Assembly (NCBI GenBank): GCA_963855995.1
Contig: OY979716.1
Coordinates: forward strand, 85,275,042-85,339,041
Direction: 5' to 3'
Length of the DNA stretch: 64,000 bases
From: Muricea muricata
Taxonomy: Eukaryota > Cnidaria > Anthozoa > Malacalcyonacea > Plexauridae
Shown: positions 21,904-47,530 of the stretch, in pieces
How the letters are laid out: each line of letters starts with the position of its first letter
Position numbering within the stretch: position 1 is the first letter of the stretch
Position numbers and translations under genes: made by a program
The notes under the pieces: model-generated
What the model was told of the DNA's origin: nothing
Database searches by the model: none
What the model saw: only the letters and a program-made list of their open reading frames with translations

Positions 21904-23963
21904 ATGGCGGAAAGCCAGGAAGAAGTGCCACCAGAGGTGACAAGTATCATTTTAGATTTTATTGTCGACACTTGTAAGATTCTAACTGAATCAAGTCTGC
22001 GCCTGGACAAAGTTGATTACGTATTATCCAGAATAAACAGCGTAGAATTAATGCTTACCATATGTGCAGACTCAATCGATGTAAATCCAATGGTATTCCA
22101 AGCCGTTTCTCAAGCGAAACACTTGCTTTCAAATCTATCTTTTGAAGGATCTGCAGCTACAGCAAATCAAGCAACAAAGTTGTTTTCAGGAGACAGAGGT
22201 AGGCCTCGCTTTGTGGTTACCAAGGAGCAACTCGAGTTTTTTTATCAATTTTGGTTTTCACTGCCCAGAAATTGGAAGAATACTAAATATTAGTGAATCA
22301 ACTGTTCGAAGATGACTGAAAGAGTTTGGGATATCTGCTAACAATTTCACACGTCTTACTGACACAGAGTTAGATTCTGTAGTGGAAGAAGTTAAGAGAG
22401 ATTTCCCAGACAGCGGGTACCGAATGGTATTGGGCCAACTTAAGGCAAGAAATTTGCACGTGCAGGAAAACCGAGTGCGAGAGTCTCTCAGAAGAGTTGA
22501 TATGGAGGGTGTTATTAGTAGAACATGTGCACTACGAATAATCAGACGGAGAAGATATTGAGTTAGTGGTCCAAATGCACTATGGCATGTGGACACCAAC
22601 CACAAACTTATTCGGTAAATTAGAACCTATTTTTTTTCCCTTTTGTCAATTATTCTTTGTCAATTACTGAAGTCTATACTTGGTTGGACACTGTGTGTGT
22701 CCGTGCACACTGTGTGTGTCCGTGCGTGTGTTTTACAAAGAAAGCAGGAATACTCCATCCTTGATGTAACGAGTCAGTCATAGCTTATAAGTTAATAAGT
22801 TATTCCCAAAAAGTGTGTTAATCCGTAAAATTATACACTATTAACCTGTTTAGATATATTATGTTTTTTAACACTAATATAAAGCTTAGTCACTATTTTA
22901 CTAATACCATTAGTCAATGTAGTGGTCCACAAATTTGTTAATTTAGTATGTAATGGGGACATGGCATAGCCTGAAATGAAATGTTAAAATCTGCACCAAA
23001 TACACTTGTAATGTAGCAATTACCCTTGCAATTAGCTGTGATAACTTGTAAGGTCTAACTATTAATGTCCACATGCAATTGATGCAACAGTTATGTGATT
23101 GCACATTCTATTTCAGTTGGTGATGTGTTATCCATGGTGCTATTGATAAGTACTCATGAACAGTGCTGTACCTTCGCTGCCACAATAACAACTCTGCTGA
23201 AACTGCGCTTTTTGAATTTACACAAGCTGTTGAGGAGTATGGTCTACCCAGTCGTATTAGGACTGACAAGGGAGGTGAAAATCATGGAATTGCCTGGTAT
23301 ATGCTCAACCACTTAGAAAAAGGCCCTGGAAGAGGTAGTGTCATAGCTGGACAAAGTGTACACAATCAGAGGCAAGAAAGACTCTGGCGTGATGTTAATT
23401 ATGGTTGCACACATGTTTTTTATCCACTATTTTATTACATGGAGCAACAGGGTATACTTGTTCCAACAAACGAGATACATATCTTCTGTCTACATTATGT
23501 GTTTGTGCCCAGAATTAACAATAATCTTCTTATGTTTAAAAATGGGTGGAATCTTCATGGCTTAACAACTGAAGACAACAAGACTCCAACACAGTTGTGG
23601 GTTAGAGGAATGTTGCAAACACATAATTTTGCTGTGGAACCATCCAGCCAGGTATGCTTTTGTGTAGATTTATGAGTCAAAGATATTCGACTAAAGCAGT
23701 TTCCCTTTTGTTCATAGGAGGAGCTAGATGTTTATGGGATCGATTGGGATGGACCAGTGCCTTCGGAAACTTGGGGAAGTTTAACACATGATGGTGAAAT
23801 TGTTGTGGCTCAAATAGGTATTACTATTTCAAATAACCAGTTTGTTTTTTTGCAAGAAAATATTAACCCGTTGGGACAAACAGAAAATTTTGGCATTGAC
23901 ATTTTTGAAAATACTTTGAACTTTCTTCAAAACCTTTTGGCACCCCAAGCATGCAATCAATAA
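21904..23963 (+). pseudogene. IS3EU-like transposase, divergent subfamily, copy 2 (three exons)
   Basis: Exon 1 (21904-22614) starts MAESQEEVPPEVTSIILDF and later holds HTH-like LNISESTVRR and GYRMVLGQLKARNLHVQE. Exon 2 (23117-23651) has AVEEYGLPSRIRTDKGGENH and HNQRQERLWRDVNYGC. Exon 3 (23718-23963) holds the YGIDWDGPVPSE tail. Candidate catalytic residues are D in WHVDTNHKL (end of exon 1), D in RTDKGGEN and E in NQRQERLW. Introns have GT-AG ends. One extra T in a T run near 22240 shifts the frame and TGA codons interrupt near 22312, 22560 and in exon 2. It is only distantly similar to copies 1 and 3, so it is a separate subfamily. It faces HECT copy 2. Confidence 0.75.
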
Positions 23964-24221
23964 CTTTATTATGTAAAGAGATATTTAGTACAGTCTGTAA
24001 CAGTAGCTATAGTAACAAGCAGGGTGCACTGGATCTGAGTTTTACTATTCTGGACAGTATGCAATATAAAATGAGTGTTCATTCTGGCTTTTCAATGGTC
24101 GAGAACTGCACATGATCTATTGGAGGACAGAATCACAGCTGACGCCATTTCAGTGGCAAACCAACCATAGCCAATTGCGTGCTTTGTTTTGTATCGATCA
24201 TGACCATGTCCACATACAAAC

Positions 24222-24413
24222 AAAGATAGATAACATTTTGCCATTGTCTGCTCAGTTATAGATACAGGGTAGATGTCATAATGTGGTAAAAATATCAGTG
24301 ACCCTAGCCTAGGAGCCGAGTGGGCTACTTTTTTGTTCTTACCACATTATAACATCATACGGTGTACCGGTATCTATAACTGAACAGACAACAGCAAAAT
24401 GTTATCTATGTGT
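24222..24413. mobile_element. Palindromic MITE, about 190 bp
   Basis: AGATAACATTTTGCCATTGT and CAGTTATAGATAC near the left end are matched at the right by GTATCTATAACTG and ACAGCAAAATGTTATCTA. Most of the element can fold on itself, including the CATAATGTGGTAA/TTACCACATTAT pair. No target duplication was resolved. Confidence 0.7.
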
Positions 24414-24444
24414 TAAATAGCTTTCATTTTTGCATGCGTCTGTA

Positions 24445-24873
24445 GGGGGTTGACATAACATGGGCCCCCTTTCTGGACCCCATTTTGGATCCCTATCTGG
24501 AACTTTCAAAAACCAACAGATAAGATTGTAGGACACAATATCAACGATAATAATGTCCTACCTATGGTCCTACACAGCAAAAAATGCCACGCTTTTAACA
24601 ATGTTGTTGAAACTGAAAAAAAAAATTTTGAACAAATATTTCTGCCCATATTGTACCTGGTTGTTAACAATATTGTTCAGTATTCAATCTGTTTTCAGTT
24701 TCAACAACATTGTTACGAGCTGGGTGTTCTTTTGCTGTGTAGGACCATAGGTAGGACATTTATTATCGTCGTTTGTGTCCTACAGTCTCATCTGTTGGTT
24801 TTAAAAGGTCCAGATAGGGAATCCAGAATGGGGTCTAGAAAAGGGGGGGGGGGTCCACGTTTTGTCAACCCCC
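24445..24873. mobile_element. Tc1/mariner-like MITE with long inverted repeats, TA target
   Basis: The ends are GGGGGTTGACATAACATGGG and, in complement at the right, GGGGGTTGACAAAACGTGGA. Inverted similarity continues for well over 100 bp (CCTACCTATGGTCCTACACA occurs near 24558 and in complement near 24745). TA flanks both sides (24443-24444 and 24874-24875). There is no coding region. The two ORFs here lie in the hairpin arms. Confidence 0.8.
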
Positions 24874-26504
24874 TATGTCTGTACTGTATAGATCACTGAC
24901 GACGTCATGGCAGGATCTATTACAGTATGCAAGCAAAAAAATACTCTATTTGCTTTATATAAAAGAACCTTAAATAACTGTGGGAAAAACCGGTAAAAAA
25001 CATTTTGCCCAAGTACATCGTGCTATTGGATGACATCATTTGTGTATGTGTACTATAATTAGACACAGCTTTTAACCTATGAAATGCAGAATGAACTCTA
25101 ATTATTATATAATTTTTACTATTTTTATATTTGAATTGATGCTCGACAGATATTTGTACACTTCAGTAAAAACAAATTATCCAGTATCTGACCGCATAAT
25201 AGTAAATATGCAGCCCAGTACTGGATATTTTTAATATTCGACCGGATATGTTATCCGATGCACCCCTAGTGACAAATGCTAACAAAGATTAAATAAAGCT
25301 TGAACTAACTTTTACGTCAAATATCAACATTTCAGATATGCACCTTTAATATCAAATATCAACAAATGAATGCAATTTTAACTAATTTCAAGTTAATTGC
25401 ACCAGTGTACTGTACAGCATGGTGTTGCTATCAAACAGAAGTGAATTTCAAAGGTTTTCCAGGAGAGGAGAATGCAGCATCCAGGTGTGCTTTAAAATTT
25501 TCGAACTCCATATTTCCCATAGCTTTAAGAAGGTAGAACCTCAACAAGCATGTTGAAGCAAATATACCAGTTGTTACATCGTCATTCACCTCCACTTGAA
25601 TGTGATGAATAGGTGGTTGTGGCAATGTTGATGACCCTGAGCAGAATTTGATGTACTGCTCTAAACCTGAAAGTGAAAGAGTAGGGGAATACAAATTATC
25701 ATTGCATATAAACAGACATGTACAGAGATGAGGTAAAAAATTCTGGCAAGGGTTTGGTTTATTTATGCATGTGAAATAACATCAAACATTAGCATATCCA
25801 CCATCCAATTTAATCATGCAACAAACATACTTGTACACTATGTTAATCATCCAATATATTTAATTTGTAACATAGTTGTGTTACAGCACAGTACAAACCT
25901 TTAACAGAACGTTCTACAAGAAACTTTTCAAACATTTCCTTAATTTTTTCTTCAGTGTCATCTCTAGCTTCAAATACAAGTGTGGCTTCTTTCACTGATG
26001 TGACAGTGACAAGATTTTCACTTGTCAGGACAAACAGCTTCTTGCAGTAGCGGCGCCACGGGGTGGACTGGGGGGGACTCGTCCCCCCCATTTCTCACTG
26101 AGACCAATTTTCTAATTCGTCCAAATCCGATGAGAAAGAGGGGGGGGGGGGTACGGTAGTGGCATAAAAAGTCGTAACATCGGCCTGGGTAAATTCCAAA
26201 ATAAACTGCATTCATGTTCTAATGTTAGCAATTAACATATAACTGGCGCTAAGCTCGACAGCTATCTTTCATCGGGTAATGTCCAGCCCCGGATGTTAGT
26301 ACACAGAAGGTGTGCGTCATGTTAAATATTGCACGCTAGCGCAGTACTAACATAGTTATTAGCTACGTACTTGGCTCGCCTCACCATACAACTGCAACAA
26401 AGTATTAAATCATTACCGTACCTATAAATTGTAATTGGAAAGTGAGGAAAAAATGTTTGAAGGGATCCATCAAGTGAAATTGTCTGTGAGGCAAATAGAG
26501 CTTT

Positions 26505-29500
26505 TGTTGTCGAGTCTGGGCCAATCGGACCTATCATAGATTTTCCAACGTCGGAAATATCAGGGCGAAAGTTTAAATTTCAAACGAAATGGTACGATGA
26601 ACACACATGGTTGGAATATTCGGTGTCTAAAGACGCTGCTTTTTGTTATTCTTGCAGATGTTTTGGTGCACTAGGTAAACATATACTGTATTTTTTCGAG
26701 TGCCTTGTTCCCTCATGTCACTTAGTTTTTTAATTGCTCAGATACTAATTTAGGTGTGTGAATAAACTCAATAAAGATTTGTTTTGTGAATCTAAACACT
26801 ATGACGATTGTAGAAATTAAATACCATGTCCACATGCTAGATTTTCGAAAATTGTTAAATAACAAACAGATCGAACCGGAGCCTGATGTTTAAGCTGGGA
26901 AAATTATCATAGACCAGGGGTGAACACGTTGATTCTGCACAGTAAGTTTACAATTGTTATACCGACCTTGTCATTCTAGCAGTTTGCGAGGAAAATTTGT
27001 ATTCCTGGAAGGAGGTTTCAGTTTTACGGCTTTTTCACAAATTGACACAAAAATTACCGTGTGTTTTCTTATTTTTGTATTTAGAGAACCCACACACCGG
27101 ATGCGGGTTTCATTGCGTTTATTTGATACAACTTATGAATGTTAATTCTTTTAGTTGGTAAAGGCGGGCGGAAAAGCAATTAAGATTAGTGTCAAGACAA
27201 ATAGGACCTGTTGACGCAATTAGCCTATCTTAATGGTATTTGCGTTTGCGGCGTAAAGATAAATCGACGCAGTTTTACTTTCTAAAAGGTTTGTCAAAAT
27301 GTAACCAAAAATAATAATGATTTGTAAAAATTCCAATGGTATGTAACGTGCCTGAAAGTTCGGCATATTTCGCGTGTTTCAAAGTTCAGTATATCTCGCA
27401 CAATATGTTCGCGAGAATCGAATAGAACTATACATATTACAATATAAAATACATAGTGTGAAGTGGGCATGCAAACTACCCTAATTGTCTTTAAGAGGAA
27501 AAATTAAAATTTTGTTTTCCCCGGTTATAAAAAAATTTTAAAAAGAATAAGTTAAAAAGAATAATTGCGGCATTTTTTACTTTTATGCCTCATGTAATTG
27601 CAGTAAAATAACATCATATTTAAGTACTACATTGTGTTAGTATTTCAAAATTAACTTTATTGCCATGCCATATTGCTGGTTGTTTTAGCAAAATATAACC
27701 ATGCATATTGCTGGTTGTTTTAGTAAAATAACTAAAATCCATGTATTTTGATATGTAATATTGGTTGGAATATAAATGCCGTAATTTTTAGAACAGCATA
27801 GCATATATTGATAGCATGTAGCCTATAGGCTATTACCAGCTTAAATAGAAATACCCGATTCTTATAGTTGGCGCTTCAGACGATGCCTTTATGAAGACTG
27901 GTTTCCGTAACTGGAAGAATGCCACTGGAGAAAGCGGAAAGCTAATGAAACATTCAAAATCACGGATGCATATGCTCTCCGCAGAACGTATGCATTGTTT
28001 TAGATCCACAACACCAATCGACGTCCAACTAAACAAGGAAGCGGAGGAAATTAGAGGAAGGAGGGAACAGGAGAGGGTAGAAAATCAACATATTGTTGAA
28101 ACAATTTTTGATGTTGTTCGACATTTGGCCAAACAAAACAGTTCATTTCGTGGCCATGATGAGACGGACGACTCCAAAAACAAAGGAAATTTCCTCGAAG
28201 AGCTTGAATTTCTCTCTCAAAGTACCACACACCACTAAAAAAGTGGATGGATACCCATCCAGAGAATGTCTCGTATTTATCACATGTGAGCCAGAATGAA
28301 ATGATTAGCATCTTAAGCAATCTCATTGCTGACGTCATCTGCAATGAAGTACGTACTGCGAAGTATTTTTCCATTCAATGTGACGAGGTAACTTCTCACA
28401 AAAAGGCCTTCATGTCAGTCATACTACGGTATGTGACGGATTTCAAGATAACAGAAAGGTGCATCAAGCTTGTGAGAGTATCTAGTTTAACGGGGCAATC
28501 TTTGGCTAAGGTGATCGTTGATACATTGAAAGATCTCAAACTGCCAGTAAAGGATCTTATTGGTAAAGGCTTTGATGGCGCAGCGAATATGTCTGGAAAG
28601 GATGAAGGCGTGCAACAACATTTGACTGAAGCTGGGGCAGAGTTATCGATTTATTTTCATTGCTTTGCCCATAAACTAAACCTTGTCCTGGAACAAAGCG
28701 TAGAGACGGTTCCCTCAGTCAAGGAAATCTTTGAAACAATCGGGGACATTTATCGATACATGGAAGGGTCGCCAAAAAGGCACGAAGTATACGAAAACCA
28801 TCTAAAAGCGAATGCCATTACGTCAGGGAAAACCGCTTTACACTCGTTTTCTGATACAAGGTGGACTGCGCGCACTGCAAACTTGGAGGTTCTGCTCAAT
28901 GTGTATCCTGCACTGTTACCAATGTTTAAAGAACAGACAGAACAGAACAATGACAGTGTTGCAACTGGATTACTTGTGCGTTTAATTCAATTTAGATTTG
29001 TAGCTGCATGTCTAATCCTAAAGAAATGTTTTTCCCTTAGCACACATGCATCTGAATACCTGCAGAGAGAAGATATGGATCTTACCTCGGGAGTTACTGC
29101 AATTCATGACCTGAAAGCAATGATGGCATCTTTTCGAAGTGATCAGCAGTTTGAGATGTTTCTAGCGGAAGCTAATTCTTTTGCTGAGAAATGTGGCAGT
29201 GAAGTGGTTGATGGTAGTTTCAGTGACTCAAATCCAACAGCGTTGCAAAATAAGCGTTGCCGAACACTTCCTGCTTATCTCGCTGACGGCGGAAATGTCA
29301 TAGATATGCCCAATTTACGATGCAACCGACCAGAAGGTGAATCAGAGGAACAGCGCTTTAGGCGTGAATTTTACTTTTCCTTCTTGGACAAGCTTTTGAA
29401 TGATCTAAACAAACGGTTTTCGTAGAAAGCATGCGAAATGATGACTCTGGCTGCAACATTTCATCCACGAAACCTCACTGACGAAAATGCCTCTAAAGCT

Positions 29501-29974
29501 GAAAAAGTTGCCCAGTTCTACCAGCTTAGCAGTGATCGTGTTGGCCAACAATTTCTACTATTTTCGAAATCTAAGCAATGTAAGGACTGGAAGATTGCCT
29601 ATGAGCACCATATCAGTGAAGAGAAGGAAATGGAAGACAATTTAGACAAAGGGCCCAAAACAAAGTGTCGTCGACCTTGGATCTGCTTGCCGTGCTTGCT
29701 AGAAGTTTTCAGCAAAGATGACCTGCACCGTCTTTATCCAGACCTGTTTAAAGTCATTAAGATTGTCGCTACCTTGCCTGTAACAGTGGCATCGTGTGAG
29801 CGTACACACAGCAAGGTCAAAATAATTAACAATTATTTGTGAGCCTCCATGTCACCAGATAGACTGGAAGACCTTGTCCAAATTAGCAGCGAACGAGATA
29901 TTGCCAACAATATAGAACTTAGCAAATTTGTGGAAATGTTTAAGCTTGCAAAACCTCATAAACTTCCCCTGTAA
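26505..29974 (+). pseudogene. hAT transposase with TTF-type zinc finger (ZMYM1/DUF4371-like)
   Basis: Exon 1 (about 26505-26674) encodes FQTKWYDEHTWLEYSVSKDA and FCYSCRCFGAL, a TTF zinc finger. After a GT-AG intron, exon 2 runs from 27868. The RNase-H-like core shows D in IQCDEVTSHKK, D in GKGFDGAANMSG, and the HCFAHKLNLVLE helix, then SDTRWTAR. The C-terminal dimerisation region is VTVASCERTHSKVKIINNYL. The copy has a frameshift near 28210 and in-frame stops at about 29425 (TAG) and 29840 (TGA). Length and order match full hAT transposases of this class, so decay is recent. Confidence 0.85.
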
Positions 29975-30094
29975 ATAGCATTGCGATCATATAGTATAGC
30001 CATTCTTCTACTTAATCTGTTGCCCATGTGTATAGATGTAATTTTCTTTTAGGTATTTGTTTATCAATGTATCCAGGTCTAACAAATACATGTG

Positions 30095-30160
30095 CAATCT
30101 CGTACCCAGAGCAATGCCTGTTCGCGGGTTAGGCTGGCATTGGCTCTGGGTACGAGATTG
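30095..30160. repeat. Small hairpin with CAATCTCGTACCCAGAGC arms
   Basis: CAATCTCGTACCCAGAGC and its exact complement GCTCTGGGTACGAGATTG enclose 30 bases that also pair partly (CAATGCC/GGCATTG). It lies in the 3' untranslated part of hAT transposon 1. It is probably a small nested foldback element. Confidence 0.8.
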
Positions 30161-31877
30161 ATACACGTGTAGAGTTACAAAAAATTGTGCGTTCAAGTTG
30201 CTTTATGATCTTGAGAATTCACTTCATTACTGCCTGGAAAATCCAGGAAATTGCATTTCAGGGATTCCAGATTTCAAAATTTTGCCGGGGGAGCATGCCC
30301 CCGGACCCTAGCTGGCTCGCGCCTTTGGCGCGAGATTGTCACCCCCAGCTTCAATGCCCTGGCACCGCTACTGGCTTCTTGCATTGTTGGGGAAAGCTCT
30401 GGACAATGTCCATTAACCCAAGGACATCTAAACCTCTGGAAAACTGGTCAAGCATAGGTATTCTTTTTCCCAAAACATGGTGAGATATTATACTATGAGC
30501 AATTGCATATCTGTTGCTTTCCTAAAGACACAAAGGCATCACATTGTCGGTTGTACTTAGTCAAAATGTTGTCAGCAAATGTGATTTGCACCCCTTCCTC
30601 TGAAATGTTGTCTTAGCGATAGAATGGATGTTGGAGACTATTACAACACAATACTGTAAACAGATTTACAACTAACATATCACTCTTACTGTAACTGTTG
30701 TCACTCCACATTCAGATAATAACTTCAGCTTTTCCATAAACATATAGACACAAAGACATTTAAGATAAACAGTGACAAATGTTTGTGGTACTATACCTGG
30801 TTAATAAAGTTAACAGCATCAACACCGTAAACATCTGCAATTGTGACATGATCCATTGCTTGAGTAATATCACCAGTTGCAAGGTAATGGTAGGATGATT
30901 CGGCCAAATAAGGAAAGCCACCACACCCCTGAACAATGCTATGACCAACAATTGTGCCGAATAGTTTATCTAATTCCTGAAGAAAGGGCATGCTGATTAT
31001 AGTTGAAAAGAAGCCGTGCTAATGGGCCTTCAAAGAGCTTAAGCTCTGTTGACGTGGTTAATCTCTCGAAAAGATCACTGAAAACTGTCGTTTCACTCCA
31101 CCAGTATCAACTGCAGGTTGGCCATTGAAGTATACACGTATTGGCAGGGATGTGTCAAAGTCACTTCTTTTATAAAATGCTAAGGCATTTGATACAAGGT
31201 CATCAGCGTCAACTCTAACTTTCAAAATAGTACCAGTGACTTTCGTATATACCTTTTTCTTCAATATTTCTTTCAAGGTCAGCGTGGCTGCATCTAGAAA
31301 GTACAAAAACCACATGTTATTAGAACCAAAGTAATCCTTAGTAGTAATAAATGAATTAATATGTTCAACTCCACATGTTTGTGTAACACAATAAAGAGCT
31401 GAGAATAAATCAAGTTTTAAATGCTGCTTGTCGTCTAAGAGACCCTCACCCATAACATCTAAGTTGGTGGTGCAGGGTTTTGTCCCAAATTGTTCATTAA
31501 ACCAATGTAGCCCCCTTAAAGGATATGGTATAGTACTGTTAACAGTAACAATCAGTTAATTCTCAACACAATGATTGTACAGTATTTTCATAACACTAAT
31601 TGCTGCATATATGCCTGGTGCTAAGCTTGCATTCAGTACATACATTTAAGATCGATATTTTGAATGAGAGAGTTGGCTATGGGTACATACATTGGCTATG
31701 GGTACCATTGGCTATGTATGTTGTGCACCCATATAGCATATTAACTTATGTGTATCAATGTTTAACATGCAAAGTGTACCAGTACGAAAAATCAAACTAC
31801 ATACAGTAACAGAAGTACAGAACTAATACAACAATATTTATGTCATAGATGAATGCAAGGTATATTCTTATTCTTAC

Positions 31878-32035
31878 CAATCTCTTTAGAAGTGTTCTGT
31901 AAAATATGGTCAACTGCATCTTGAATAGTAATTGAAGAATCAACAGCATTCCTCACCAGGTCTGTGTTGGCATCAGGAAACATTTCCCCAAGCTGTTGCA
32001 TCATTTCAGTGTCATCATCTTTGTTGATGAGATCA
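31878..32035 (-). CDS. CUE-domain exon of HECT copy 2
   Basis: The exon lies between acceptor TTACAG and donor GTAAGA. It encodes DTEMMQQLGEMFPDANTDLV and SITIQDAVDHILQ. The MFP motif, the Ala-Val pair and the final Leu-rich helix match the three-helix CUE ubiquitin-binding fold. The frame passes as E-I-D into the HECT N-lobe exon at 31293. Confidence 0.7.
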
Positions 32036-32472
32036 CTGTAACAACTATCGTTATTAGAACTCTAAAAAATGTTGTATGGAAAACCAGTTTATATTCTCTG
32101 TACATTTCCAAAATGGTTTTCGTGCACATGAAGAAATTGCCAACCAAAAATAATCAACTGGTCAAAAATTGCTCAACATTCCTGCACATTGATTAAGCTA
32201 ATTGAACAGCAAATTACAAACAACTGCATAGATATACTTCATTATTTGAAACACATTATTAGAGAAAGTCCAGCAATCTTTGATCAAAAACTTGTTTGAA
32301 ATAAATTTTGAGACAAAAGCAAGCAATAAAATGTTTATTTTGCAGTTCAATGCTAAATTATGCAACATTTTCATGCATAACAAGTTTAATTCATATAAAT
32401 TAAAATAGCTTTGAAAGGGAAGTATCGTAAATTGAAAATTGCAAATCTGGCAAGGATTACAACGGACAAATA
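32036..32472. other. Spacer between HECT copy 2 and the left end of element 3
   Basis: AT-rich, with no exon I can support. If HECT copy 2 has SAM or UBX exons upstream, element 3 (starting at 32473) may separate them. Confidence 0.4.
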
Positions 32473-32750: not shown

Positions 32751-33935
32751 ATGTATCTTTTATTATTACTTCTTATTTTGCATCTATTTCTGCAGTGCAA
32801 ATGTGTTTTACCGCCTTATTTGCCTGTTCTGGTAAATAAAAATTTCTAACGTGAGGATTTAATTGAACAATATTTTCATATGGGCCTTGGTTACAGTGAA
32901 ATTGTGCAGTTTTTGGGTTTACTGCACGGATGTGTCTTGAGCATTTGTCAGTTAAAGAGAATTCTGTAACGACGTGGTCTAGGAAGACGAAAGAACCACT
33001 CTGAAATTGAAGAAGTTTACTGGGCCATAAGACGAGAATTGCATGGCAGCAGGAGCACAGTGGGTTATAGACAAATGACCAGATGATTTCTGCACAGACA
33101 TGGTGTGATTGTTGACAAGGAAACTAAAGATTTTGGACCCTGAAGGGGTTAATGCTAGGTCAAGACATCGATTACCGTGACGACAAAATAAAACGGAGGG
33201 TCCAAACCACGTTTGGCATATTGACGGGTACAAGTTAAAACCATCTGGTTTTTGTATCCACGGTTCAATCGATGGATACAGCAGGCGTGTTATGTGGCTA
33301 GATGTGCGCCCTTCTAATAACGATCCTCGCATAATTGCACAGTATTATACTGAATGTGTTCAACAAATTGGGGGAACTGCCAGAGTAATAAAAGGGGACT
33401 GTGGAACAGAAAACGTTCATGTAGCAGCATTGCAACGTTTCTTCAATAACGATGAACAAAGTTTTGTATATGAAAAGTCCTGTAATAACCAACGTATTGA
33501 GGCATTTTAGGAGAGGTTGTGTGAATTGGTGGATAAGTTTCTTTAAAGACCTTAGGGACAGCGGCCTATTCTGTGATGCAGATGACATACAAGTTGAATG
33601 GTTAAAGTTCTGCTTTACAAGCATGTTGCGTGAAGAGCTGTACGAATTTGCTATGGAATGGAATCTGCACAGAATAAGAAATTCAGTAACTGCCGAATCT
33701 CCCGGTGGTCAGCCTGATATCAGTCTTATATTTCCTCTCTTCAATGACAGATGATGTGAGAGATCTCATTACACATGTTTCTGAAGAAGACATAGAGATA
33801 GCATGGTTGCTCAGAAGAGTTTGTTGAATTAGCATCAATTATGATGCTAGAAAACCATCTAGATATGCCATCCAACCCAGAAAATGGTGTTATTCTATAT
33901 TCAACCATTCTGGAAAATATTTGGGATTTAATGTA
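32751..33935 (+). pseudogene. IS3EU-like transposase, copy 3 (degenerate)
   Basis: It resembles copy 1 throughout: GLGYSEIVQFLGLLHGC and SICQLKRIL at the N-terminal helix-turn-helix, SGFCIHGSIDGYSRRVMWLD and GDCGTENVHVAALQRFF in the core, NNQRIEAF for the Glu region, then RRGCVNWWISFFKDLRDSGL and the acidic tail. Stops near 32848, 32967 and 33078 and several small deletions kill it. The second core Asp is preceded by Gly-Asp-Cys-Gly instead of Ala-Asp-Arg-Gly. The hydrophobic residues after ATG 32751 end in a CTGCAG that looks like a splice acceptor, as in copy 1. Confidence 0.75.
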
Positions 33936-36111: not shown

Positions 36112-36166
36112 CACTTTATCCCATCCCACCCCATCCCATCGAATTCCATCGCATTGCATTCCTTTC
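36112..36166. repeat. (CCATC)n-like simple repeat
   Basis: Imperfect CCATC/CCACC/GCATT pentamers with no coding relevance. Confidence 0.8.
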
Positions 36167-37145: not shown

Positions 37146-38413
37146 CTATGCATTACCAAAGCCTCGTCCATTTTGAATACCAAAGGTCATGTGAGCCTTA
37201 AAGGCCTCATATGTACTATGCAACATGGGCAGATATAAAATGTTTGAGCATGTATTTGCCTTGGGAAACCTTGACTTTTCGCCACATTCTTCAAGATGAT
37301 GTAGAAATTGAATGGTGGGATAAATCTTTCGGGCTGGAAGAACTTTACATGCTGTCGAAAAGAACAAAATGTCTCTAAAAGTGATGCAATCTTCACCTTC
37401 TTCAATATCCTGTAAGTAATCGTGCCATCGTGATAGGACCAGGCTTTCTGCAACTGCATTATTTGATCCAACAGGACTTTGAATCACTTGGAACAGGTGC
37501 TCAGTGCTTTCAGCAGTAAGCTCTGTTGAATAATGGAAAAATGCAGGACGAAACACGTCAGGGTTCTCCTTGAGTGCGTCAAGAACCCTAAGCGTCGACA
37601 GACCGATTAGGAAGCTTTCCAGGGCTGGTCGAGCACGTCTAAGGACAAACCACTTTGCGGTCATTTCGGCAATCTTCCTTATGTCGTCTGTGCTCTGGAT
37701 TGGTTGAAGTGTCCCAACAAGATCGAGAACACTCAGCAACAAGGTATCATTTATGGCTTGGATTGCTTCTTCTTTACTACCCACATTGCATAGGTTTTGA
37801 AGTGATGACTGTAATTCCATATCATACACATCTTCAATTGTAATGGGAATTTTGTCAGGATCACGAATAAGAGCTTCGAACATGTTATGGGCAAAACACT
37901 GAGGTCCAGACACACCATGGACTAAGGACATTGCAATAAGCATACCCGCAAAGTAATCATTCCCTTCGAGGCAAGTGGATTGGAAAGAGAGAAACTTTTG
38001 ATGCTCTGGCCCACAAAATAGCTGGGAAGTGAGCATCCACTGAATAACTAGTGTGAAGAGCTCCTTCATGGGCCCACCCATATCAACGGCCCCCTCACTG
38101 TTACCTATGTCATCGGTGAATTACACCGATATTTTGTTTTTTGTAGAAAATGACTTACGCGCCAGTGCCCTTTTCACTCCCTCCCATACAAAACTACGAG
38201 AAATGTTAAATTTTGATATGCAGGTGTGGTCGATTTCACTTGCCACACCGTCACGAATTTCATGTAGTTTTTTCTTGGAAACACAAGGTTGCTCACCACC
38301 TTCCTTTAAATTACCCTCTTCTTCAAAATAAAAGGCACTTGCATCACAGTCATTTAGAATGGAGGCATAATAAGTATCTAAGCAACTGTAAATCTTCTGT
38401 AGATCGTCATTCT
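37146..38413 (-). pseudogene. HECT-domain exon of copy 3
   Basis: After a TACGCAG acceptor, the N-lobe opens with KFNISRSFVWEGVKRALARK and continues FTDDIGNSEGAVDMGGPMKE, typical of HECT ligases, but an in-frame TAA sits between the two near 38125. From 38081 on, the frame is open to 37146. GMLIAMSLVHGVSGPQCF and LSTLRVLDALKENPDVF form the middle, and SRFPKANTCSNILYLPMLHS holds the candidate catalytic Cys (codon 37248-37250), followed by YEAFKAHMTFGIQNG. About 400 residues, nearly complete apart from the nonsense codon. Confidence 0.85.
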
Positions 38414-39935
38414 CTGCGTAACATACACTAAAAAATCCATAAAAATATCATTCAACAGTTGCTGCGTTATTTAGGTAGACCATTTATTCCTAAAAATATA
38501 CAGCACAGGGACCGGTTGTTCATTAAACGGTAGATAATTATATAAGTCAAATTTAAATCACAGTCCAATTTATCTTGTGAACGACTGAACTAATACTGTA
38601 GATCAGAACCAATACAGTACATCAATGCTTTTTTCAGGTTGAAATATTTTATTTTAGTTGTTCAATGAATCATGGGTGTATATTCTCCAATGACGTTTGA
38701 TTCTATACCCCCCTTCTTTTCAGCTTTGATTTTCTTCCCCATATATGATACTCCCAGAATTTTGCCATTTTCTATGAATACATAAATATTGAATCTGAAT
38801 TATATTAACGAATGTCAACATTAATTACAGGTATTTTAACCATTTTCCCTTCAACCTTCCCTTCAACTCTCCTTTCAACCTTCAACTATCCCTTCCCTTC
38901 TTCACTCTTCTTTGATTTTCTTCCCTAGGCCTAAGGCCTTTTGATTTCTCCCCCACCCCCCTGGGAGGGATTATAGAAGAATATACAGCCCTGTAATGAA
39001 TACATATAGTTATTTTAAATCTTAAACTTACCCACCGTTTAAATTGAAAACTTGCCCCAGTACTTCAGGTATTTCAAAAGAATAGATGACAAAATAGACT
39101 GTTTCAGAATTGTCATTTAGGTTATGCATTGCAGATATATGGTTGAGGTAGATAAGATAATTGCAACAGTGTATAAGTAATGCCATTACTAATCATGTGT
39201 AATAAACGAAAAAGATGGAACTGCCTTATAACAATTTTTTGCAAAAACAAGTAAATCCATCAAGACGAACGTTTTTAGTACCAGAATATACAGGGTGTTT
39301 GAAAAAGAAATGAAGAAATCTAAAATTGCTCTAAACGTCGTAAAGCGCGTTAATGTACGTAAGTTTTTTATTGAAACAAATTGTTTTTGTACCTATAATG
39401 TAAAATAAATAGAAAACCACACGTTTACCACAAGTTAAAAATGGTTTGCACACAAAACTTTAAGAATACTTTAAAAAGTATTTTTGACTTGGTGGGTAGA
39501 AAATTTGTCCTGTGTTGTATTGTTCAAAATTGAAAAAGAAATGCAAAATGTCAGGCAAACTTCCATATTTTGAGAAATATCAACTTGGTGCATGCTTGAT
39601 TTATGCATTTGCCAAATTTGCATATGTTTCCCATTTAATTAAAATTAGAACTTTTCATAAGAAAAACCATTCTTGTATAAAAGAATTTAAATTCGATCGA
39701 TGTCTTGAAGGTCTTAAAGTCAAGCAAATTTGTTGCAATAAACAACTAACAAATTTTCTCACTTTTAAGCCTTCAAATTTCATGAGCAAGCCATTTTTAA
39801 GAAACATACTGCTTCAAATGTACACAAGAAACATAGTCAAGAAACATATTGCTTCAAATGTACACAACTTGTCCTCACATATAGCATATCATTCATAAAG
39901 TACAGTACTTAGTATACAGTAGCTGGGGTACTTAC
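38414..39935. other. Intron of HECT copy 3
   Basis: No exon is supported. It has a CCCTTCAACC-type repeat at 38838-38905 and an imperfect direct repeat around CTGCTTCAAATGTACACAAG (39808 and 39850). The Lys- and Phe-rich ORF at 39512-39898 has no recognisable domain. Confidence 0.45.
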
Positions 39936-41081
39936 CTGGGCAAGGATTGGTTATTTGCATTGACTGATCCAAAACCCAAAAACTGCCCTTCGTCATCAGA
40001 TTCCAACAGTCCTGGGGTTTCATGTTCTGCTTCAACCATTAAATAGGTGCAGCGATCAGATAATTCTTGACTCGGTTTTTGCACCACCCCTAAGTGGTTT
40101 ATTGTAAAGTTCTCTGGATCAGAACAAAGGGAACCAGCCCAGTCATACAGGGCTGCCATGCAAGCAGTTTTTGGAAACTTTCTAGACAGTAATCCCATTG
40201 TGACATGCCTGATCTTGACAGTCACAAACTCTTCATTAGGCTCCAGAAGCACTCTATCAGCCCTAGCATTCTGAATTTTCTCCTTGCGTTTTGTGTCTTC
40301 ATTTTCTCTTTCAAGTGAAACTGTCTTTCTTTCATCTGCTTTCAATGACTCTTGAAATTCCTTGTCTTGCTCATTCACAAGATTCTGTCTGTCCATGGTG
40401 GAGCCAACAAGCAAACTATTTTGAGTTAGGTCAAATTCACTAGTTAAGTCATCATTAGCTCCATCATAACTGTCATCATCACTGTCATCTATTTTTCTGG
40501 ATTGTAAATATAGTCTGACAGTTTTCATCTTGTGCACTTCCATGTAGTTACACAAGTTAAATGGCTTATCTTCTCTTCCAACTCTAATAAAGTCTTCAAC
40601 CTTCTCACCTTTAAAGTTAGTCAAGCCAAAAATCATATTATCTTCATTTCCAAAGATAGAATTTCCCCCAGGGAAAAAAGATCCTTACAAGTTTTAAGCA
40701 TGTCATCTTACTACTGGATACAGCCATTTCTACCACTCGACTTCCCCCTCTCTTGATCAGAGGCACAAAGGTGTATGACTGCTCCTGTTCCTTGAAATGT
40801 TTCCACCCAAGATGCACTTTTTTCATTGTTTGTTTTTGGGGCTCTTTTATTGAAGAATAACTGCTTTTAGATTTGCTATTTGGCTTCTTACTTTCCTTTT
40901 TCCAAGAAAGAAAGGCCTCCAGCAATGCCCTTTTTCTATTCTTACTTTCTTCAAGTTGTGGACTATTTTCATCTTTTTGACAGACACAGAAACCTTTTAG
41001 ACTTAAACGATCGCCTGCCTTTGAGAGGCCCATTTCTTTTAAAAGCTCATCAGAAGCATTTGTAATTGCAAGTGCATCCAT
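39936..41081 (-). pseudogene. SAM(C-terminal half)-linker-UBX-like exon, copy 3
   Basis: It starts after TTTAG at 41082 with MDALAITNASDELLKEMGLS and ends at a GTAAGT donor (39935). Parts in order: SAM completion, a Lys/Ser linker (KKESKKPNSKSKSS), the HLGWKHF and IKRGGSRVVEM block, an acidic helix (DDSDDDSYDGANDD), a charged coiled coil, the UBX-like fold and an acidic end. A one-base indel near 40680 splits it into two frames. Compared with copy 1 the same landmarks occur at the same spacing, so the two genes are homologous along their full length. Confidence 0.75.
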
Positions 41082-41272: not shown

Positions 41273-41487
41273 TGTAAGGTATTTTGTATGTTTTCACTTT
41301 GATACCTAAGTGTAGTACGCGTGCAAACATGCGAGAAGCCACGCGTTGCGAGAAACACGTTGTTATGAACTGAACAGCCGCCATTATGACGGTTGTCATA
41401 TATATTCGTCGTAAATTTGTTGTATATGTGTTGATAAATTAAATATTATAAAACGAGTTGGAGCCTTCGAACCTAAATTCTCTTACA
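41273..41487 (+). repeat. BEL 5' LTR (215 bp)
   Basis: Aligned without gaps to 47208-47422. Eight mismatches, all transitions, six of them at CpG sites. Confidence 0.95.
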
Positions 41488-41519
41488 TGGTCCTTTGAGA
41501 GCCGGATATACAATGAATA

Positions 41520-42488
41520 ATGGCTGACGAATTGAAGAAATTAGTAAAAATACGAGGAGGTCACCGAGCCAATCTTAAGAAAACATTAGCTGTCACAGAA
41601 GAACTCTTAACGCAATCTACCGAAATTTCTGAAGAAACACAAGCAAGTGACTTTGAAATAAAACTCACACAACAACGTGTGATTTTGAACGAGAAATTAA
41701 CACTTCTAAAGAGTTTTGACGACAAGATTATCCTTTTGGTTGAGGATGGAAATATTGAAGATGAACTGTCCAGTGCTGATGACATACGTCAAGTTATTCA
41801 AAAGTCAATTGTTCACGTTGATTTAATTTTGGAAAAACTGAAGAAAAGATGGAGTAAAGACATTGGATCTTCATCAATCAGTCTCGAAGGTTCTCAGTCG
41901 CAAGCAACAACACCACCAACATCTAACAACACGGTAAGATTACCAAAATTAGAACTAAAACATTTTAATGGGAACATAATGGAGTGGACTTCATTTTGGG
42001 ATTCCTATTCTTCATCCATTCATAAAAATCCTAATTTATCGGACATAAATAAGTTCAATTATTTGCATAGTCTATTGGAAAAATCTGCTGCTGAAGCAAT
42101 ATCGGGTCTAAAAATAACTTCAGCAAACTACCAAGAGGCAATAGACATCTTAGACAAAAGATTTGGCAATCAGCAACAAATTGTCAATGCCCATATGACT
42201 GCCTTATTAAACCTGCCCAAGGTGAATAATGTAGAGGACTTGAAAGGCCTTAGACAATTACATGATAAAGTAGAGGGCCATATGAGGGGACCAAAATCAC
42301 TTGAAGTTGAATCTGGTACATATGGTAATCTGTTAGCACTTATTTTAATTGATAAGTTGCCTAAAGAGCTACGTTTAGAAGCTGCAAAGGAGCTCAAAGA
42401 AAATTGGGATCTAGATGAACTCATCAAAATCTTCAAAAGGGAATTAGAGGCTCGAGAAAGGGCAAGTCTCTTAACAGGTAGTTCATAG
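41520..42488 (+). CDS. BEL gag-like ORF (DUF1759)
   Basis: It starts MADELKKLVKIRGGHRANLK, 33 bases after the LTR, which allows a short leader. An N-terminal coiled-coil region is followed by the DUF1759 hallmark LPKLELKHFNGNIMEWTSFW and helices such as KFNYLHSLLEKSAAEAISG. It forms the particle shell in BEL elements. It ends at a TAG (42486-42488). The remainder of the polyprotein continues in the same frame from about 42540, so the stop may be a mutation rather than a designed gag/pol boundary. Confidence 0.85.
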   Translation: MADELKKLVKIRGGHRANLKKTLAVTEELLTQSTEISEETQASDFEIKLTQQRVILNEKLTLLKSFDDKIILLVEDGNIEDELSSADDIRQVIQKSIVHVDLILEKLKKRWSKDIGSSSISLEGSQSQATTPPTSNNTVRLPKLELKHFNGNIMEWTSFWDSYSSSIHKNPNLSDINKFNYLHSLLEKSAAEAISGLKITSANYQEAIDILDKRFGNQQQIVNAHMTALLNLPKVNNVEDLKGLRQLHDKVEGHMRGPKSLEVESGTYGNLLALILIDKLPKELRLEAAKELKENWDLDELIKIFKRELEARERASLLTGSS

Positions 42489-42539
42489 GATACCCCATCT
42501 AAGTCACCGTTTAAACCTAAGATCTCGTCTGCAGCATCC

Positions 42540-45500
42540 TTGTTGGCTACTGGAGGAAGTCCAACATGCACCTACTGTCAACAACCCCACCCTTCAAATA
42601 GCTGTAGTACGGTGACAGACAAAAATGAGAGAAAGGAAATTCTGAAACAATCTGGAAGATGTTATATATGCCTTAGAAAGAATCATGTTGCTAGAGAATG
42701 CAAATCTAAGATAAAATGTTTTAAATGTGATAAGCGCCATCACATTAGTATCTGTCCATCAAATTCTAAGATAAAACCTAACCCGCCAGAACAAGAAGCA
42801 GCCCGTCAACCAAATCCCCATGAAGAATGTCCACGCATGCAACCCCAAGGTCACCAACCCACAGACCAAAATAAGGAACAACCTCAGGACACCCATGTCA
42901 ATATGTTTGTTGATGCCCAGTCATCCATTCTTTTACAAACTGCAAGAGCCACCATTTACAACCCAAAGGATTCTAGTAAGACGTCGCAGGCAAGACTTAT
43001 ATTTGACAGTGGAAGCCAAAGATCGTACATAACCTTTGCAATGAGAGACAAGCTGAATCTCCCTACAGTAAGAAAGGATACCCTTAAGATTAATGCCTTT
43101 GGTTCTAAGGGTGAAGATATTACCTCCTGTGATATGGTTCAATTTCAGTTGGGCACTGAGAGAGGACATAAGTTAAACCTATCGGCCTATGTTGTTCCAT
43201 TGATATGCTCCACAATTGGAAACCAAAATACGAGATTTGCTCAACAATCCTATGAACATCTTTCTGGCCTAAAACTTGCTGACTCAGGAAACGATGGAGA
43301 AGAATTCAATTTGAATATACTGATTGGAAGCGATTATTATTGGCAGTTGGTCACCGGTCATGCAATCCATGGAAATGATAGTCCTACAGCAATGCATACC
43401 CAGCTTGGCTGGATTCTGTCTGGTCCAGTGAAAGGAGCACCACCCAACTCTCATTCCAACGTCAACATAGCATCCACTCATGTGTTACGATGTTCTACCC
43501 AACCTATTCCTTCCCCAGAAGTGACAATCGAAGCTAACCTGAAACGTTTTTGGGAATTGGAATCAATTGGTATTAGTCCTGACGAGCGTTCTGTTTATGA
43601 AGAGTTTCTAAGTACTGTGACCCACCGAGATGGTCGTTATGAAGTTCACCTACCATGGAAGGATAACCAAGTCACCCTACCGGACAACTACCAGCTTAGT
43701 CTCAGGAGGTTGGAATCCCTCCCACAGAGACTCCGCCAAGACCCTAAAACCTTGAAAGAATATGATAACATCATTAAGGAGCAGATAGCCAGAGGAATAA
43801 TAGAAAGAGTTGATGAAACGTCCACTACTGATGCAAGTCGTGTCCATTACTTACCACATCATGCCATCATCCGACGCGATAAGAAAACAACAAAATTGCG
43901 GATAGTCTACGATGCCTCTGCGAAATCCGAGGGTCCCTCTCTTAATGATTGTTTATACTCTGGTCCATCACTTGCTGAGAATATCGTAGACATTCTGTTG
44001 GGATTCAGGTGTCATCCAACAGCATTGGTCGGAGATGTTGAAAAGGCGTTTTTGATGATTGCCATTGCAAAGGAAGACTGAGATGTCTTGAGATTTTTCT
44101 GGGTTGACGATATCACTAAGGATGATCCTAAGATTATGACATATCGATTTACGCGAGTAGTATTTGGGGTGACTGCCAGTCTATTTTTGTTGAATGGGGC
44201 AATCAAACATCACATTGAGAAATATCATGAAGACCCGGAGTTTGTACACAAGTTTCTGAGTAGCATTTACGTGGATGATCTAAGTTCTGGAGACGAGGAT
44301 GACAATGCAGCCTATGAACTGTATATTAAATCGAAACAACGACTAAGTGAAGGCGGATTCAATCTTCGTAAGTTCCTAACTAATTCTCCTATCCTATTGC
44401 AAAGAATACAGCAAAATGAAGATACCCTCGCTATCAGTCAATCAACGACATATGTGGTCAATGATGTGTGTACTGAGGATAAGTCATATTCCAAATCAAC
44501 AGTCGGTAATCCCCAAGAAGTACCGTTGGAAAAGGAAGAGAAGATCCTTGGAATTCGGTGGAACTATGTCAGTGACACATTCATATTCAATTGTCAGAAA
44601 ATTGTCCAAGCAGCTAGAGAACTCGAGCCTACAAAGCAAAATGTCATTGGGATCGTATCCTGTTTCTATGACCCACTGGGAGTTCTCGCACCCATAACAG
44701 TCAAATTAAAGATGTTATTTCAGGAGCTATGCCAATCTAGAGTTGGATGGGACGAAGAATTATCAAGCGAATTGAAGAAGAAATGGGAACATCTTATCTT
44801 AGACCTGGAGAATATAGAATCGACCCTAATACCGAGATGTTACCGAGCGGGAATTGAAGAAAAGGTTCTTTCTTACAGCCTCCAAGGATTTTGCGATGCA
44901 TCCCTTAAAGCCTATGGAGCTGTTGTTTATCTGAAAATGACTACCTCCCTGGGAACATTTATAAGATTTGTTATTGCCAAGACAAGAGTCTCTCCGATTA
45001 ACAAACAAAGCATTCCAAGATTAGAACTTCTTTCAGCAGTCATATTAGCAAGACTTATTTCAACCGTTACAAGGGCTCTGAACGAAACCCTAAGGCTTGA
45101 TGATCCAACCTGTTGGACTGATTCTATAGTAGCACTGTATTGGATACTGGGTGAAACCCAAGAATGGAAACAGTTCGTTCAGAATCGTGTCGTTGAGATA
45201 AGAAAATTGGTGCCGTTAAAATTCTGGAGACATTGCCCTGGTAAAGTAAATCCTGTGGACATTGCCTCTAGAGGAGCAACCTCCACTAACTCAGGCGCAC
45301 TTCAAACCTGGTTAAATGGTCCGCAATGGATGCTCAATGATACCGGAAACAAGGAAGTTGAGGAGAAGAATAACGCAGAATTTTCGGAAGAATGTATAAC
45401 AGAAATGAAAGCCAACGATCGAAGGACGTTTCAGAACACTTGTTCACTCGTATGCACCGAAACAAGTTACCAGATCCAGAACATTATTGACGTACGAAGG

Positions 45501-47100
45501 TTTAGCAGTTTTCAGAAGCTTATTACCGTAACATGTATCGTTTTGTGATTTATTCGACGAGTGAGGAAAGCCCATTTGAGAGCCGAACAGAATAAGAACT
45601 CTGAAGCTGAAACCGCAGAAATTTTATGGCTCAAACAAATACAACTAGATCTCCCAAATCACCCTTCATTTGAAACATGGAAAAACCAGTTTGGGTTATT
45701 CTGGGATAAGAACGGAATCATCAAGTGCAAGGGAAGAATTTCAAAGGCGAACATTCCTGACGAAACCAAACATCCAATTCTGTTGAACACCAAGAATGCA
45801 TTAACCGAGTTAATTGTTAAGGAAGCTCATAATTGCGTGTTTCACAACGGTGTTAAAGAGACACTTACAGAATTACGCTCGAGGTTTCGGATAATTCGTG
45901 GCAGACAATTCGTAAGAAAGTTAATTCACAGGTGCGTGATTTGCAGGAGACATGAAGGTAAACCCTATTCCCTACCTGCCTCCCCAGCTTTGCCACAATT
46001 TCGAACCCAACGACAAGTACCCTTCGCCTCGACAGGAGTTGACTTTGCTGGACCGCTCTATGTGAAGAAATCAAAGACGAGCAAGACACAAACAAAGACC
46101 TGGATCGCCCTTTATACCTGCGCTGTCACGAGAGCTCTTCACTTAGAACTTGTTTCGGACATGATAAGCGAATCTTTCCTACTGTGCTTTCGACGATTTT
46201 GTGCGAGGAGAGAACTTCCCAAGAGGATGATTTCCGATAACGCCAAAACGTTCGTGACCGCGTCCCAAAGATTAAAGGCTTTATTTCAGCTTCCCGAAGT
46301 TAGACATCATATGGAAACCAAACGAATTGAGTGGTCATTCAATACACCTAAGGCCCCTTGGCAAGGAGGATTTTTCGAACGACTAGTTAAGTCAGTAAAA
46401 CGGTGTCTGGAAAGCATGTATCACGTATGAGGAATTACTAACTGTACTTACAGAGATCGAGTGTGTCTTAAATTCAAGACCATTAACTTATGTTTCTACC
46501 GAAGATCTCGAGGAACCTTTAACGCCCTCACACCTTTTGTGTGGAAGACGACTTTTATCTGTGCCATCTAGCGATACGTCTGAGCCAATAGATCCTGACT
46601 GGACCCCTAAATCGGAAGAATTCACTAGATGTGTTGTTTATTTACAGAGATTGATTGATAATTTTTGGAATAGATGGTCGAAGGAATATCTGTTAGAGCT
46701 ACGAGAATCTCATCGTAACACTTTCCAAAATTCGCCATCTCAAGAAATAAGCGTAGGAGAAATGGTTTTAGTACATGAAGATAATCAGTGTCGAGGATCT
46801 TGAAAATTGGGAAAGGTTGAGAAACTGATTAAGAGTGATGATCATAAAATTAGAGCGGCAGTTGTAAAGGTTAGTGGAGAAGGAAAGAAGGCAAAACAGT
46901 TGAAGAGACCTATCAACAAACTACATTCATTGAAAGTACGATCGCAAGATGAAGACAAGTCAAACTCGGCAAATGCAACCGAGACACAAGCTAACATGGA
47001 ACAGTCGGTTCACGATCAGCAGGAGAATACACCGCGAAGAGGAGCTGCAGTAATGGCAGATATGATCAGGAAGCAATGGATAAGAGATGAGTACATTTAA
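42540..47100 (+). pseudogene. BEL pol: zinc knuckles, protease, RT, RNase H, integrase, DUF5641
   Basis: Order: CCHC knuckles (about 42660-42755), an aspartic protease with a DSGSQ motif (about 43009), RT with a YVDD box (about 44270), RNase H (about 44880-45300), an HHCC and integrase core (about 45830-46420) and a DUF5641-like tail (46800-47100). The polyprotein is interrupted by TGA codons at 44079-44081, 45546-45548 and 46801-46803, and by a frameshift near 46428. The element is therefore defective even though each domain is largely preserved. Confidence 0.9.
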
Positions 47101-47207
47101 ACTAATGACTTTAATGACATACTAGTTAATTAATTTAACCTTTCACATTGTTTATAGTTTAATGTTGACCAGAACTTGTGCATACGTTACAGGTCAACGT
47201 GGGGGAG

Positions 47208-47422
47208 TGTAAGGTATTTTGTATGTTTTCACTTTAATACCTAAGTGTAATACGCGCGCGAACACGCGAGAAGCCACGCGTTGCGAGAAACACATTGTTA
47301 TGAACTGAACAGCCGCCATTATGACGGTTGTCATATATATTCATCGTAAATTTGTTGTATATGTGTTGATAAATTAAATATTATAAAACGAGTTGGAGCC
47401 TTTGAACCTAAATTCTCTTACA
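47208..47422 (+). repeat. BEL 3' LTR (215 bp)
   Basis: It has the same ends as the 5' LTR and is directly followed by the second TTGTT. Confidence 0.95.
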
Positions 47423-47467
47423 TTGTTTACATTATGAGCATACTATATAACAAGCCCACCGACATAC

Positions 47468-47530
47468 TTTTTTGTAACGAAATCTTTCTACTACTTCTTC
47501 AACTTCTCTTGTCATAAGGAACTGGCATAC
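47468..47530 (-). CDS. SAM N-terminal-half exon of HECT copy 3
   Basis: A 63-nt exon of whole codons lies between TTTCACAG and GTATGT. It encodes VCQFLMTREVEEVVERFRYK plus one residue. It corresponds in length and sequence pattern to the 66-nt exon 2 of copy 1 at 15475-15540. It is separated from the next exon by the BEL insertion. Confidence 0.65.

Follow-up and report, generated by a model that had tools for sequence, protein, structure and literature searches.

A DDE transposase and a predicted HECT ubiquitin ligase gene are carried together by a DNA transposon of the cnidarian Muricea muricata

A stretch of 64,000 nucleotides from Muricea muricata (assembly GCA_963855995.1, contig OY979716.1, positions 85,275,042 to 85,339,041), here called the window, contains three pairs of genes in which an integrase-fold transposase on the plus strand is followed by a gene for a HECT-type protein, a predicted ubiquitin ligase, on the minus strand. 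An original prediction made from the sequence alone had noted these pairs, here copies 1 to 3, and had proposed that they reflect an old functional partnership and not chance capture. For copies 1 and 3 both members are confirmed by Pfam, with four matches above cut-off. In copy 2 Pfam recognizes the transposase, and the HECT pieces were identified by a profile built in this analysis and by comparison with two relatives elsewhere in the genome, L021 and L022. All pairs in the window are copies of a single type of DNA transposon, with transposase and HECT gene both encoded by the element.

Copy 1 is complete. Its TA..TA termini could be read directly, and the transposase and the HECT gene are both located inside these ends. 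The extent of this copy is set at 5228-15983, that of copy 2 becomes 21521-32308 and is split by a hAT-like element, and for copy 3, which had been extended to 47.5 kb, the pair is present but most of 41.3-47.4 kb is a long terminal repeat (LTR) element. An upstream frame with a MAFVYLV start near position 5501 may be the 5' part of the copy 1 transposase. The surroundings of copy 1 show direct repeats at 4555-4731 and 18505-18683 (about 90% identity) with a pol-like frame, recognized by eye, between them at 16.1-18.5 kb. Judged by eye, these repeats mark an LTR retroelement, with copy 1 inserted in its 5' part.

The ends of further copies were sought at other loci of the same genome, numbered L001 to L031. 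Thirty of these, of 8.5-10 kb each, were searched (the 3.3-kb L031 was left out) for TA ends, an exact non-palindromic 6-bp duplication and spans of more than 3,000 bp. Twelve of the 30 have TA..TA inverted repeats of 79-359 bp together with a 6-bp duplication, and 0 of 118 chimeric controls, made by joining unrelated halves, have such ends and duplication. Transposase and HECT gene lie on opposite strands within the repeats in all 12 loci, and in 13 of 13 complete elements when copy 1 is counted. The remaining 18 loci may end beyond the fetched span or may have decayed. Independent target duplications around the HECT gene alone, which the original prediction had named as a refuting result, were not found by a search confined to TA ends, 6-bp duplications and spans above 3,000 bp, and neither were ends that belong to the HECT gene alone. 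Mobility of the complete unit is indicated by L016 and L017, between which 6 of 7,096 positions are different. The similarity of the two ends at the terminal inverted repeats (TIRs), and they occupy different sites with different duplications. The whole two-gene unit has thus transposed, and recently, as judged from the identity.

The association was also examined over the genome (453 Mb in 74 contigs, with the window on contig C1). Merging the best candidates, with repeated rows dropped, gave 289 loci for the transposase and 335 for HECT, the latter with the genes of the host among them. Among the matches listed, a HECT match lies within 5 kb of 154 of the 289 transposase loci, at a median gap of 1,313 bp. 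In 151 of these 154 neighbour pairs the two genes converge and HECT follows on the 3' side of the transposase; two have the same orientation and one is divergent. In the first count the divergent pair was L013, whose 3' side harbours a second HECT gene in convergent orientation, and adding two omitted HECT loci left the pair counts unchanged. Random placement within the span of each contig's matches, in any orientation, produced a mean of 5.2 and a maximum of 13 neighbours in 300 trials. The association thus exceeds chance capture, as had been proposed, and it spans deeply diverged transposases. Most of the loci studied here (L001-L020, L023-L026, L028 and L031) were picked for a nearby HECT match, while L021, L022, L027, L029 and L030 were picked by their transposase alone; opposite-strand HECT pieces were found in five of these five. 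Three of the five (L021, L022 and L027) are 94-95% relatives of copies in the window, which leaves L029 and L030 as the only distant ones. Contig C1 makes up 27% of the genome yet carries 91 of the 150 rva_4 transposase matches, among the matches listed. Scans of viral contigs for relatives found none.

In a region so dense in nested elements, the transposase and the HECT gene could be separate elements or host genes that adjoin by chance or by a shared insertion preference. Such an origin has next to no probability given the single set of TIRs and duplications around both genes in all 13 complete elements, the movement of the L016/L017 unit as a whole and the random expectation of only 5.2 neighbours. 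Shared ends and duplications, whole-unit movement and the placement comparison together refute it.

The termini, the duplication and the transposase resemble those of IS3EU/GingerRoot DNA transposons. NCBIfam models for IS481 or IS3 matched four of four transposases with best E-values of 2.7e-11 to 1.9e-7, matches that do not reach the curated cut-offs. Residues D263, D320 and E357 are invariant across 16 transposase sequences and were taken by eye as the DDE triad. No integrase zinc-binding domain was detected among five transposase proteins scanned; L025 has a weak double zinc ribbon. Element starts read TAYGG in 7 and TATGA in 6 of the 13 complete elements. The termini follow the transposase group, with TACGG in four of four members of the copy 1 group (copy 1, L026, L027 and L029) and TATG in nine of nine members of the other; the near-duplicate L017 was counted in this comparison and left out of the tree. 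According to the available parts of published accounts, IS3EU/GingerRoot elements have TA..TA termini, 6-bp target duplications and an IS3/IS481-like DDE transposase (PMC10045372; PMC12730594), and fungal IS3EU families that bear TET genes have TIRs of more than 30 bp ending TAYGG..CCRTA (Kojima 2025, PMC12730594). The same work describes fungal IS3EU elements in which a transposase and an alpha-kinase gene have opposite orientations (Kojima 2025, PMC12730594), so this type of layout exists with another enzyme. As far as these accounts go, the present elements share with IS3EU/GingerRoot the TA..TA ends, the 6-bp duplication, the IS3/IS481-like transposase and a second gene in opposite orientation. 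They differ in that the second gene encodes a HECT ligase and in the TATGA start, as opposed to TAYGG, of six of the 13 complete elements. The words 'HECT' and 'ubiquitin' do not occur in the main texts of PMC10045372 and PMC12730594.

A link between integrase-related transposases and the ubiquitin/SUMO system is known from Ginger1 elements, for which the original description reports transposases with OTU or Ulp1 protease domains and proposes a role of ubiquitin/SUMO pathways in transposition (Bao et al. 2010, PMC2836005). In that description the tag-removing protease resides at the transposase C-terminus, whereas in the present elements a ubiquitin-adding enzyme would be encoded by a separate convergent gene. 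No OTU or Ulp1 domain and no integrase zinc finger was found in the transposases scanned, which places them outside Ginger1.

All three window transposases were recovered by one profile grown from the copy 1 transposase. They belong to two lineages, as originally proposed: those of copies 1 and 3 share 60% identity (173 columns), that of copy 2 is 26% and 24% identical to copies 1 and 3, respectively, and the tree splits the group of copies 1 and 3 from the copy 2 group with support 100/100. In copy 2 the hAT-like element has landed within the HECT gene (Table 1). The HECT pieces match the purpose-built profile with E-values of 2e-7 to 2e-4, and the relative L021 does so with 1.5e-21. Two details of the earlier description of copy 2 could not be maintained. 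The proposed three-exon structure of its transposase is not established, since L022 has a single 303-codon frame where the window copy has two, and at least one break is therefore damage to the frame. The CUE domain assigned to its HECT gene scores below the Pfam cut-off. In copy 3 the interrupting LTR element has LTRs that are 96% identical and a 5-bp repeat, TTGTT, on both flanks. A BLAST search for TIRs around copies 2 and 3 returned only chance matches of 13-15 bp.

Table 1. Positions of the two-gene elements and of interrupting features in the window
Feature	Position	Strand	Remarks
Copy 1, complete two-gene DNA transposon, 10,756 bp	5228..15983	+	Sits inside an LTR retroelement (type by eye)
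Left 6-bp target site duplication of copy 1, CGAAAC	5222..5227	.	
Right 6-bp target site duplication of copy 1, CGAAAC	15984..15989	.	
Left TIR of copy 1, starts TACGGTGGTTCTGAAGGG	5228..5367	.	91% identity to right TIR over 140 aligned positions
Right TIR of copy 1	15846..15983	.	Inverted copy of left TIR
22-bp subterminal repeats of copy 1	Inward from right TIR to ~15718		
Copy 1 transposase frame, rva_4 (PF24764), DDE	5605..6762	+	Above Pfam cut-off
Copy 1 HECT domain, with catalytic cysteine	9158..10315	-	Above Pfam cut-off; predicted fold HECT-like
Copy 1 HECT gene, 5' part, two frames	11966..13244	-	SAM-like start (by eye) and region alignable to the UBX region of L023
Copy 2, divergent lineage, left end TATGAAGCG	21521..32308	+	Matches relatives; match stops at 32308, before the relatives' own ends
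Copy 2 transposase, several frames	21901..23960	+	Pfam rva_4 above cut-off for 23160-23672
Probable 3' (C-lobe) piece of copy 2 HECT gene	25434..25781	-	Assigned from its position relative to L021:5252-5599, where the HECT match is itself below cut-off
hAT-like element splitting copy 2, foreign to the transposon	26045..30373	+	Ends CAGTAGCGG; 8-bp duplication GCTTCTTG
Copy 2 HECT pieces	30354..31555	-	By profile built in this analysis; first frame begins inside the hAT end
Copy 2 CUE-like piece	31846..32061	-	14.6 bits against a Pfam cut-off of 21.1
Copy 3 transposase, partial	33181..33751	+	rva_4 above Pfam cut-off
Copy 3 HECT domain, two frames	37149..38447	-	Above Pfam cut-off
Copy 3 HECT gene, 5' part	39935..41081	-	Homologous to copy 1 counterpart, 33-34% identity
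LTR element on right side of copy 3, foreign to the transposon	41273..47422	+	BEL/Pao-type by eye; interrupts copy 3

The domain matches and the modelled fold suggest that the second gene encodes a HECT-type ubiquitin ligase. The HECT domains of copies 1 and 3 score 29.2 and 55.6 bits against a Pfam cut-off of 23.9, and six of six further long HECT frames are also above it. The C-lobe cysteine, located by a HECT motif that we take to mark the catalytic residue, is kept in 17 of 17 aligned transposon HECT domains and public relatives, and in 49 of 49 proteins of the copy 1 family (the window protein and 48 chosen from 93 matches). The model of the copy 1 HECT domain has a predicted local distance difference test (pLDDT) value of 88.4 and a predicted template modelling (pTM) score of 0.86, and all of the best 50 of 204 structure matches are HECT ligases, the best being HUWE1 and UBR5 with template modelling (TM) scores of up to 0.65. 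Upstream of the HECT domain a common 5' part occurs in copies 1 and 3 and in L013, L023, L027, L029 and L030, with a start that appears SAM-like by eye. No match to it was obtained in L024-L026 and L028, which make up the rest of that transposase group, and other lineages have different, unnamed 5' parts. In L023 a single open frame of 801 codons includes both a UBX domain (27.0 bits, cut-off 21.0) and the HECT domain. This UBX-like region can be aligned in seven sequences, L023 and six others; L013 (17.7 bits) and L029 (15.6) score below cut-off, and the scan listed no match for L027, L030 and the two window pieces.

Named relatives of the proteins were found in cnidarians, among them the octocorals Paramuricea clavata and Dendronephthya gigantea, and in sponges, a mollusc, a priapulid and fish. 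Two public proteins, P0044 (HECT) and P0177 (transposase), share the same listed length of the longest contig, 236,584 bases, and are possibly the same pair in another organism. The closest named relatives of the copy 3 HECT protein are ligases of the G2E3-like type, from which the present genes differ by lying inside transposons. One might suppose that the HECT protein serves the host, for example in defence, with the transposon merely as its carrier, since relatives bear the gene name 'G2/M phase-specific E3 ubiquitin-protein ligase-like' in a fish and two cnidarians. The copies described here are repeats that move with a transposase, and we regard a service to the host as improbable.

Comparison of substitutions indicates that the HECT gene is under purifying selection comparable to that on the transposase. 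Synonymous sites are saturated in 12 of the 22 pairs compared, and in these the HECT proportions of nonsynonymous (pN) and synonymous (pS) differences are 0.16-0.41 and 0.75-0.87. Between copy 1 and L029, for instance, pN and pS are 0.164 and 0.849 for HECT and 0.215 and 0.859 for the transposase. Eight closer pairs gave a finite HECT ratio of nonsynonymous to synonymous rates (dN/dS), which lies at 0.20-0.49 in six; two further close pairs yielded no usable ratio. Transposons pick up host genes, and the HECT gene could be such a captured passenger without function, in line with the many pair copies that are broken by stops or frame breaks. Unless the selection serves the host, its strength, similar to that on the transposase, disagrees with such a passenger, as do the retained cysteine, the deep divergence and the one orientation in 151 of 154 pairs among the matches listed; we give this origin little credence, slightly less than a service to the host. 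Since selection maintains the HECT gene, its product does something for the element.

Whether each transposase is tied to one HECT lineage was judged from trees of 27 loci, from which rows with fewer than 150 transposase or 140 HECT columns and three near-duplicates were left out. Pairwise distances of the two proteins are correlated, with a Mantel r of 0.94 for 22 loci and 0.79 for the 14 that remain without close copies (0 of 5,000 permutations in each case). Matching topologies had been proposed as a check of co-evolution, and among the loci of this genome the trees agree inside lineages, namely for L003/L007/L011/L015/L006, L008/L014, L016/L018, copy 2/L021/L022 and copy 1/L027/L029/L030, but conflict between them. 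The transposases of L012 and L010 group with L019/L008/L014 (99/99) and their HECT domains with the L003 lineage (100/100); approximately unbiased (AU) tests rejected joining the transposase to the L003 lineage (p 3e-5) and the HECT domain to L008/L014 (6e-48). For L019 the HECT domain groups with copy 3 and L024/L025/L028 (100/99) and the transposase with L008/L014 (97/93), and the crossed groupings were rejected at 8e-55 and 4e-4. The L031 transposase has 25% identity to that of copy 1 and is excluded from the copy 1 clade (p 2e-44). Its HECT domain, 36-39% identical to those of copy 1, L027, L029 and L030, is placed among them (96/96), and joining it to its transposase kin was rejected at 1e-4 and 2e-7. 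A position apart from the five-row copy 1 group was not rejected at 0.05 (p 0.061), so the L031 HECT may be a sister of this group and not a member. For L013b the transposase side of the swap test was rejected (p 3e-88) and the HECT side was not rejected (p 0.146). A partner swap is only suggested for copy 3: its HECT domain was rejected from the copy 1 clade (p 0.0056) and the 5' part of the gene is of the copy 1 type, but grouping of its short transposase with L024/L025/L028/L026 was not rejected (p 0.078). All these p values are optimistic because the groups were named after the trees had been seen.

The supported deep conflicts mean that a transposase is not bound to a single HECT lineage, and they give no support to a HECT gene that strictly co-evolves with one lineage of transposases. 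The idea of a functional partnership stands insofar as both genes are under selection, and is unsupported insofar as it implies a fixed partner. We prefer to see the pair as two recombining modules of a single transposon. A similar exchange is described for fungal DNA transposons in which the accessory gene, for a TET/JBP dioxygenase, is believed to counteract host silencing and moves between transposon lineages (Kojima 2025, PMC12730594). As described there, the likeness lies in an accessory gene exchanged between transposon lineages; enzyme and hosts are different, and exchange occurs between superfamilies, as opposed to lineages of one transposase family in the present case.

The exchange bears on what the ligase might act upon. 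In one option the target is the element's own transposase or the transposase-DNA complex, and ubiquitination would either keep the number of copies down or flag the strand-transfer complex so that p97/VCP takes it away and repair can follow. A comparable removal, of MuA by ClpX, takes place in phage Mu. UBX domains link to p97/VCP, and the UBX-like region in the copy 1/copy 3 lineage would fit p97 recruitment; the constant convergent layout (151 of 154 among the matches listed) and the congruence of the trees at fine scale would also suit such a target. A partner specific for one transposase would not easily survive the exchange of HECT genes between transposases that are only about 25% identical (L031), nor the exchanges in L012/L010 and L019, and we consider the option possible but on the doubtful side. 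Since HECT lineages move between diverged transposases while the layout stays constant, one particular transposase is a less likely main target than a host factor. We therefore favour, at roughly even confidence, an accessory ubiquitin ligase that acts on a host factor and is carried by a two-gene transposon of the IS3EU/GingerRoot kind. In this mechanism the DDE transposase would act on the inverted repeats of the element, and the HECT ligase would ubiquitinate a host protein to the benefit of the element. The likeliest targets would be a host factor that silences or restricts transposons or a chromatin-bound factor at the element. Where the UBX-like region is present, the ligase could pass its target to the p97/VCP segregase.

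A more elaborate version can be offered only tentatively. In one lineage the HECT 'writer', with its SAM-like start and UBX-like region, might tag silencing or chromatin factors for p97/VCP and so clear donor and insertion sites, the ligase half having been swapped repeatedly between transposase halves of the same layout. Genes annotated 'G2/M phase-specific E3 ligase-like' are numerous in cnidarian and fish genomes, and many of them might then be genes of such elements.

Several observations weigh against the favoured interpretation or parts of it. Among the matches listed, 135 of the 289 transposase loci have no HECT match within 5 kb. Pfam does not recognize the HECT pieces of copy 2 at 30354-31555. 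The right end of this copy was sought in L021 and L022, where shared sequence runs to about L021:9808 and then diverges without a TA end; the right end of copy 3 was not found either, and a search for an end of the TACGGTGG kind in this copy gave none. Of the 12 saturated pairs, 8 have a higher pN for HECT than for the transposase, and among the close pairs HECT dN/dS is high for L010-L012 (0.81) and L021-L022 (1.42). A UBX match above cut-off was obtained for only one of the seven proteins with a UBX-like region. The HECT trees carry long-branch warnings, and their fine-scale congruence with the transposase trees is also expected of a transposase-specific partner. Finally, the anti-host role is proposed by analogy.

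Further features lie elsewhere in the window. A second hAT-like transposase frame was recognized by eye at 53295-55137, and a long GC-skewed repeat array at 56286-56850 would translate into GGRE or SLPP repeats in several frames. Inverted repeats of 97-100% identity at 57172-57369 and 63823-64000 surround several minus-strand frames (57939-62805), and this unit of 57172-64000 is probably another large DNA transposon.

In the literature searched, a broad topic sampled in part and with subscription journals mostly outside, no report of a HECT gene in any DNA transposon was found. The transposon-ubiquitin links that were found, in the portions of the sources available, concern tag-removing proteases, and a standing ligase gene would represent the opposite activity. 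A dedicated ligase as the second gene would make the old proposal that ubiquitin takes part in transposition directly testable, and the swapped partners provide a natural system for asking what an accessory protein recognizes. The finding is also a caution that HECT gene families which have expanded in animal genomes may belong to transposons.

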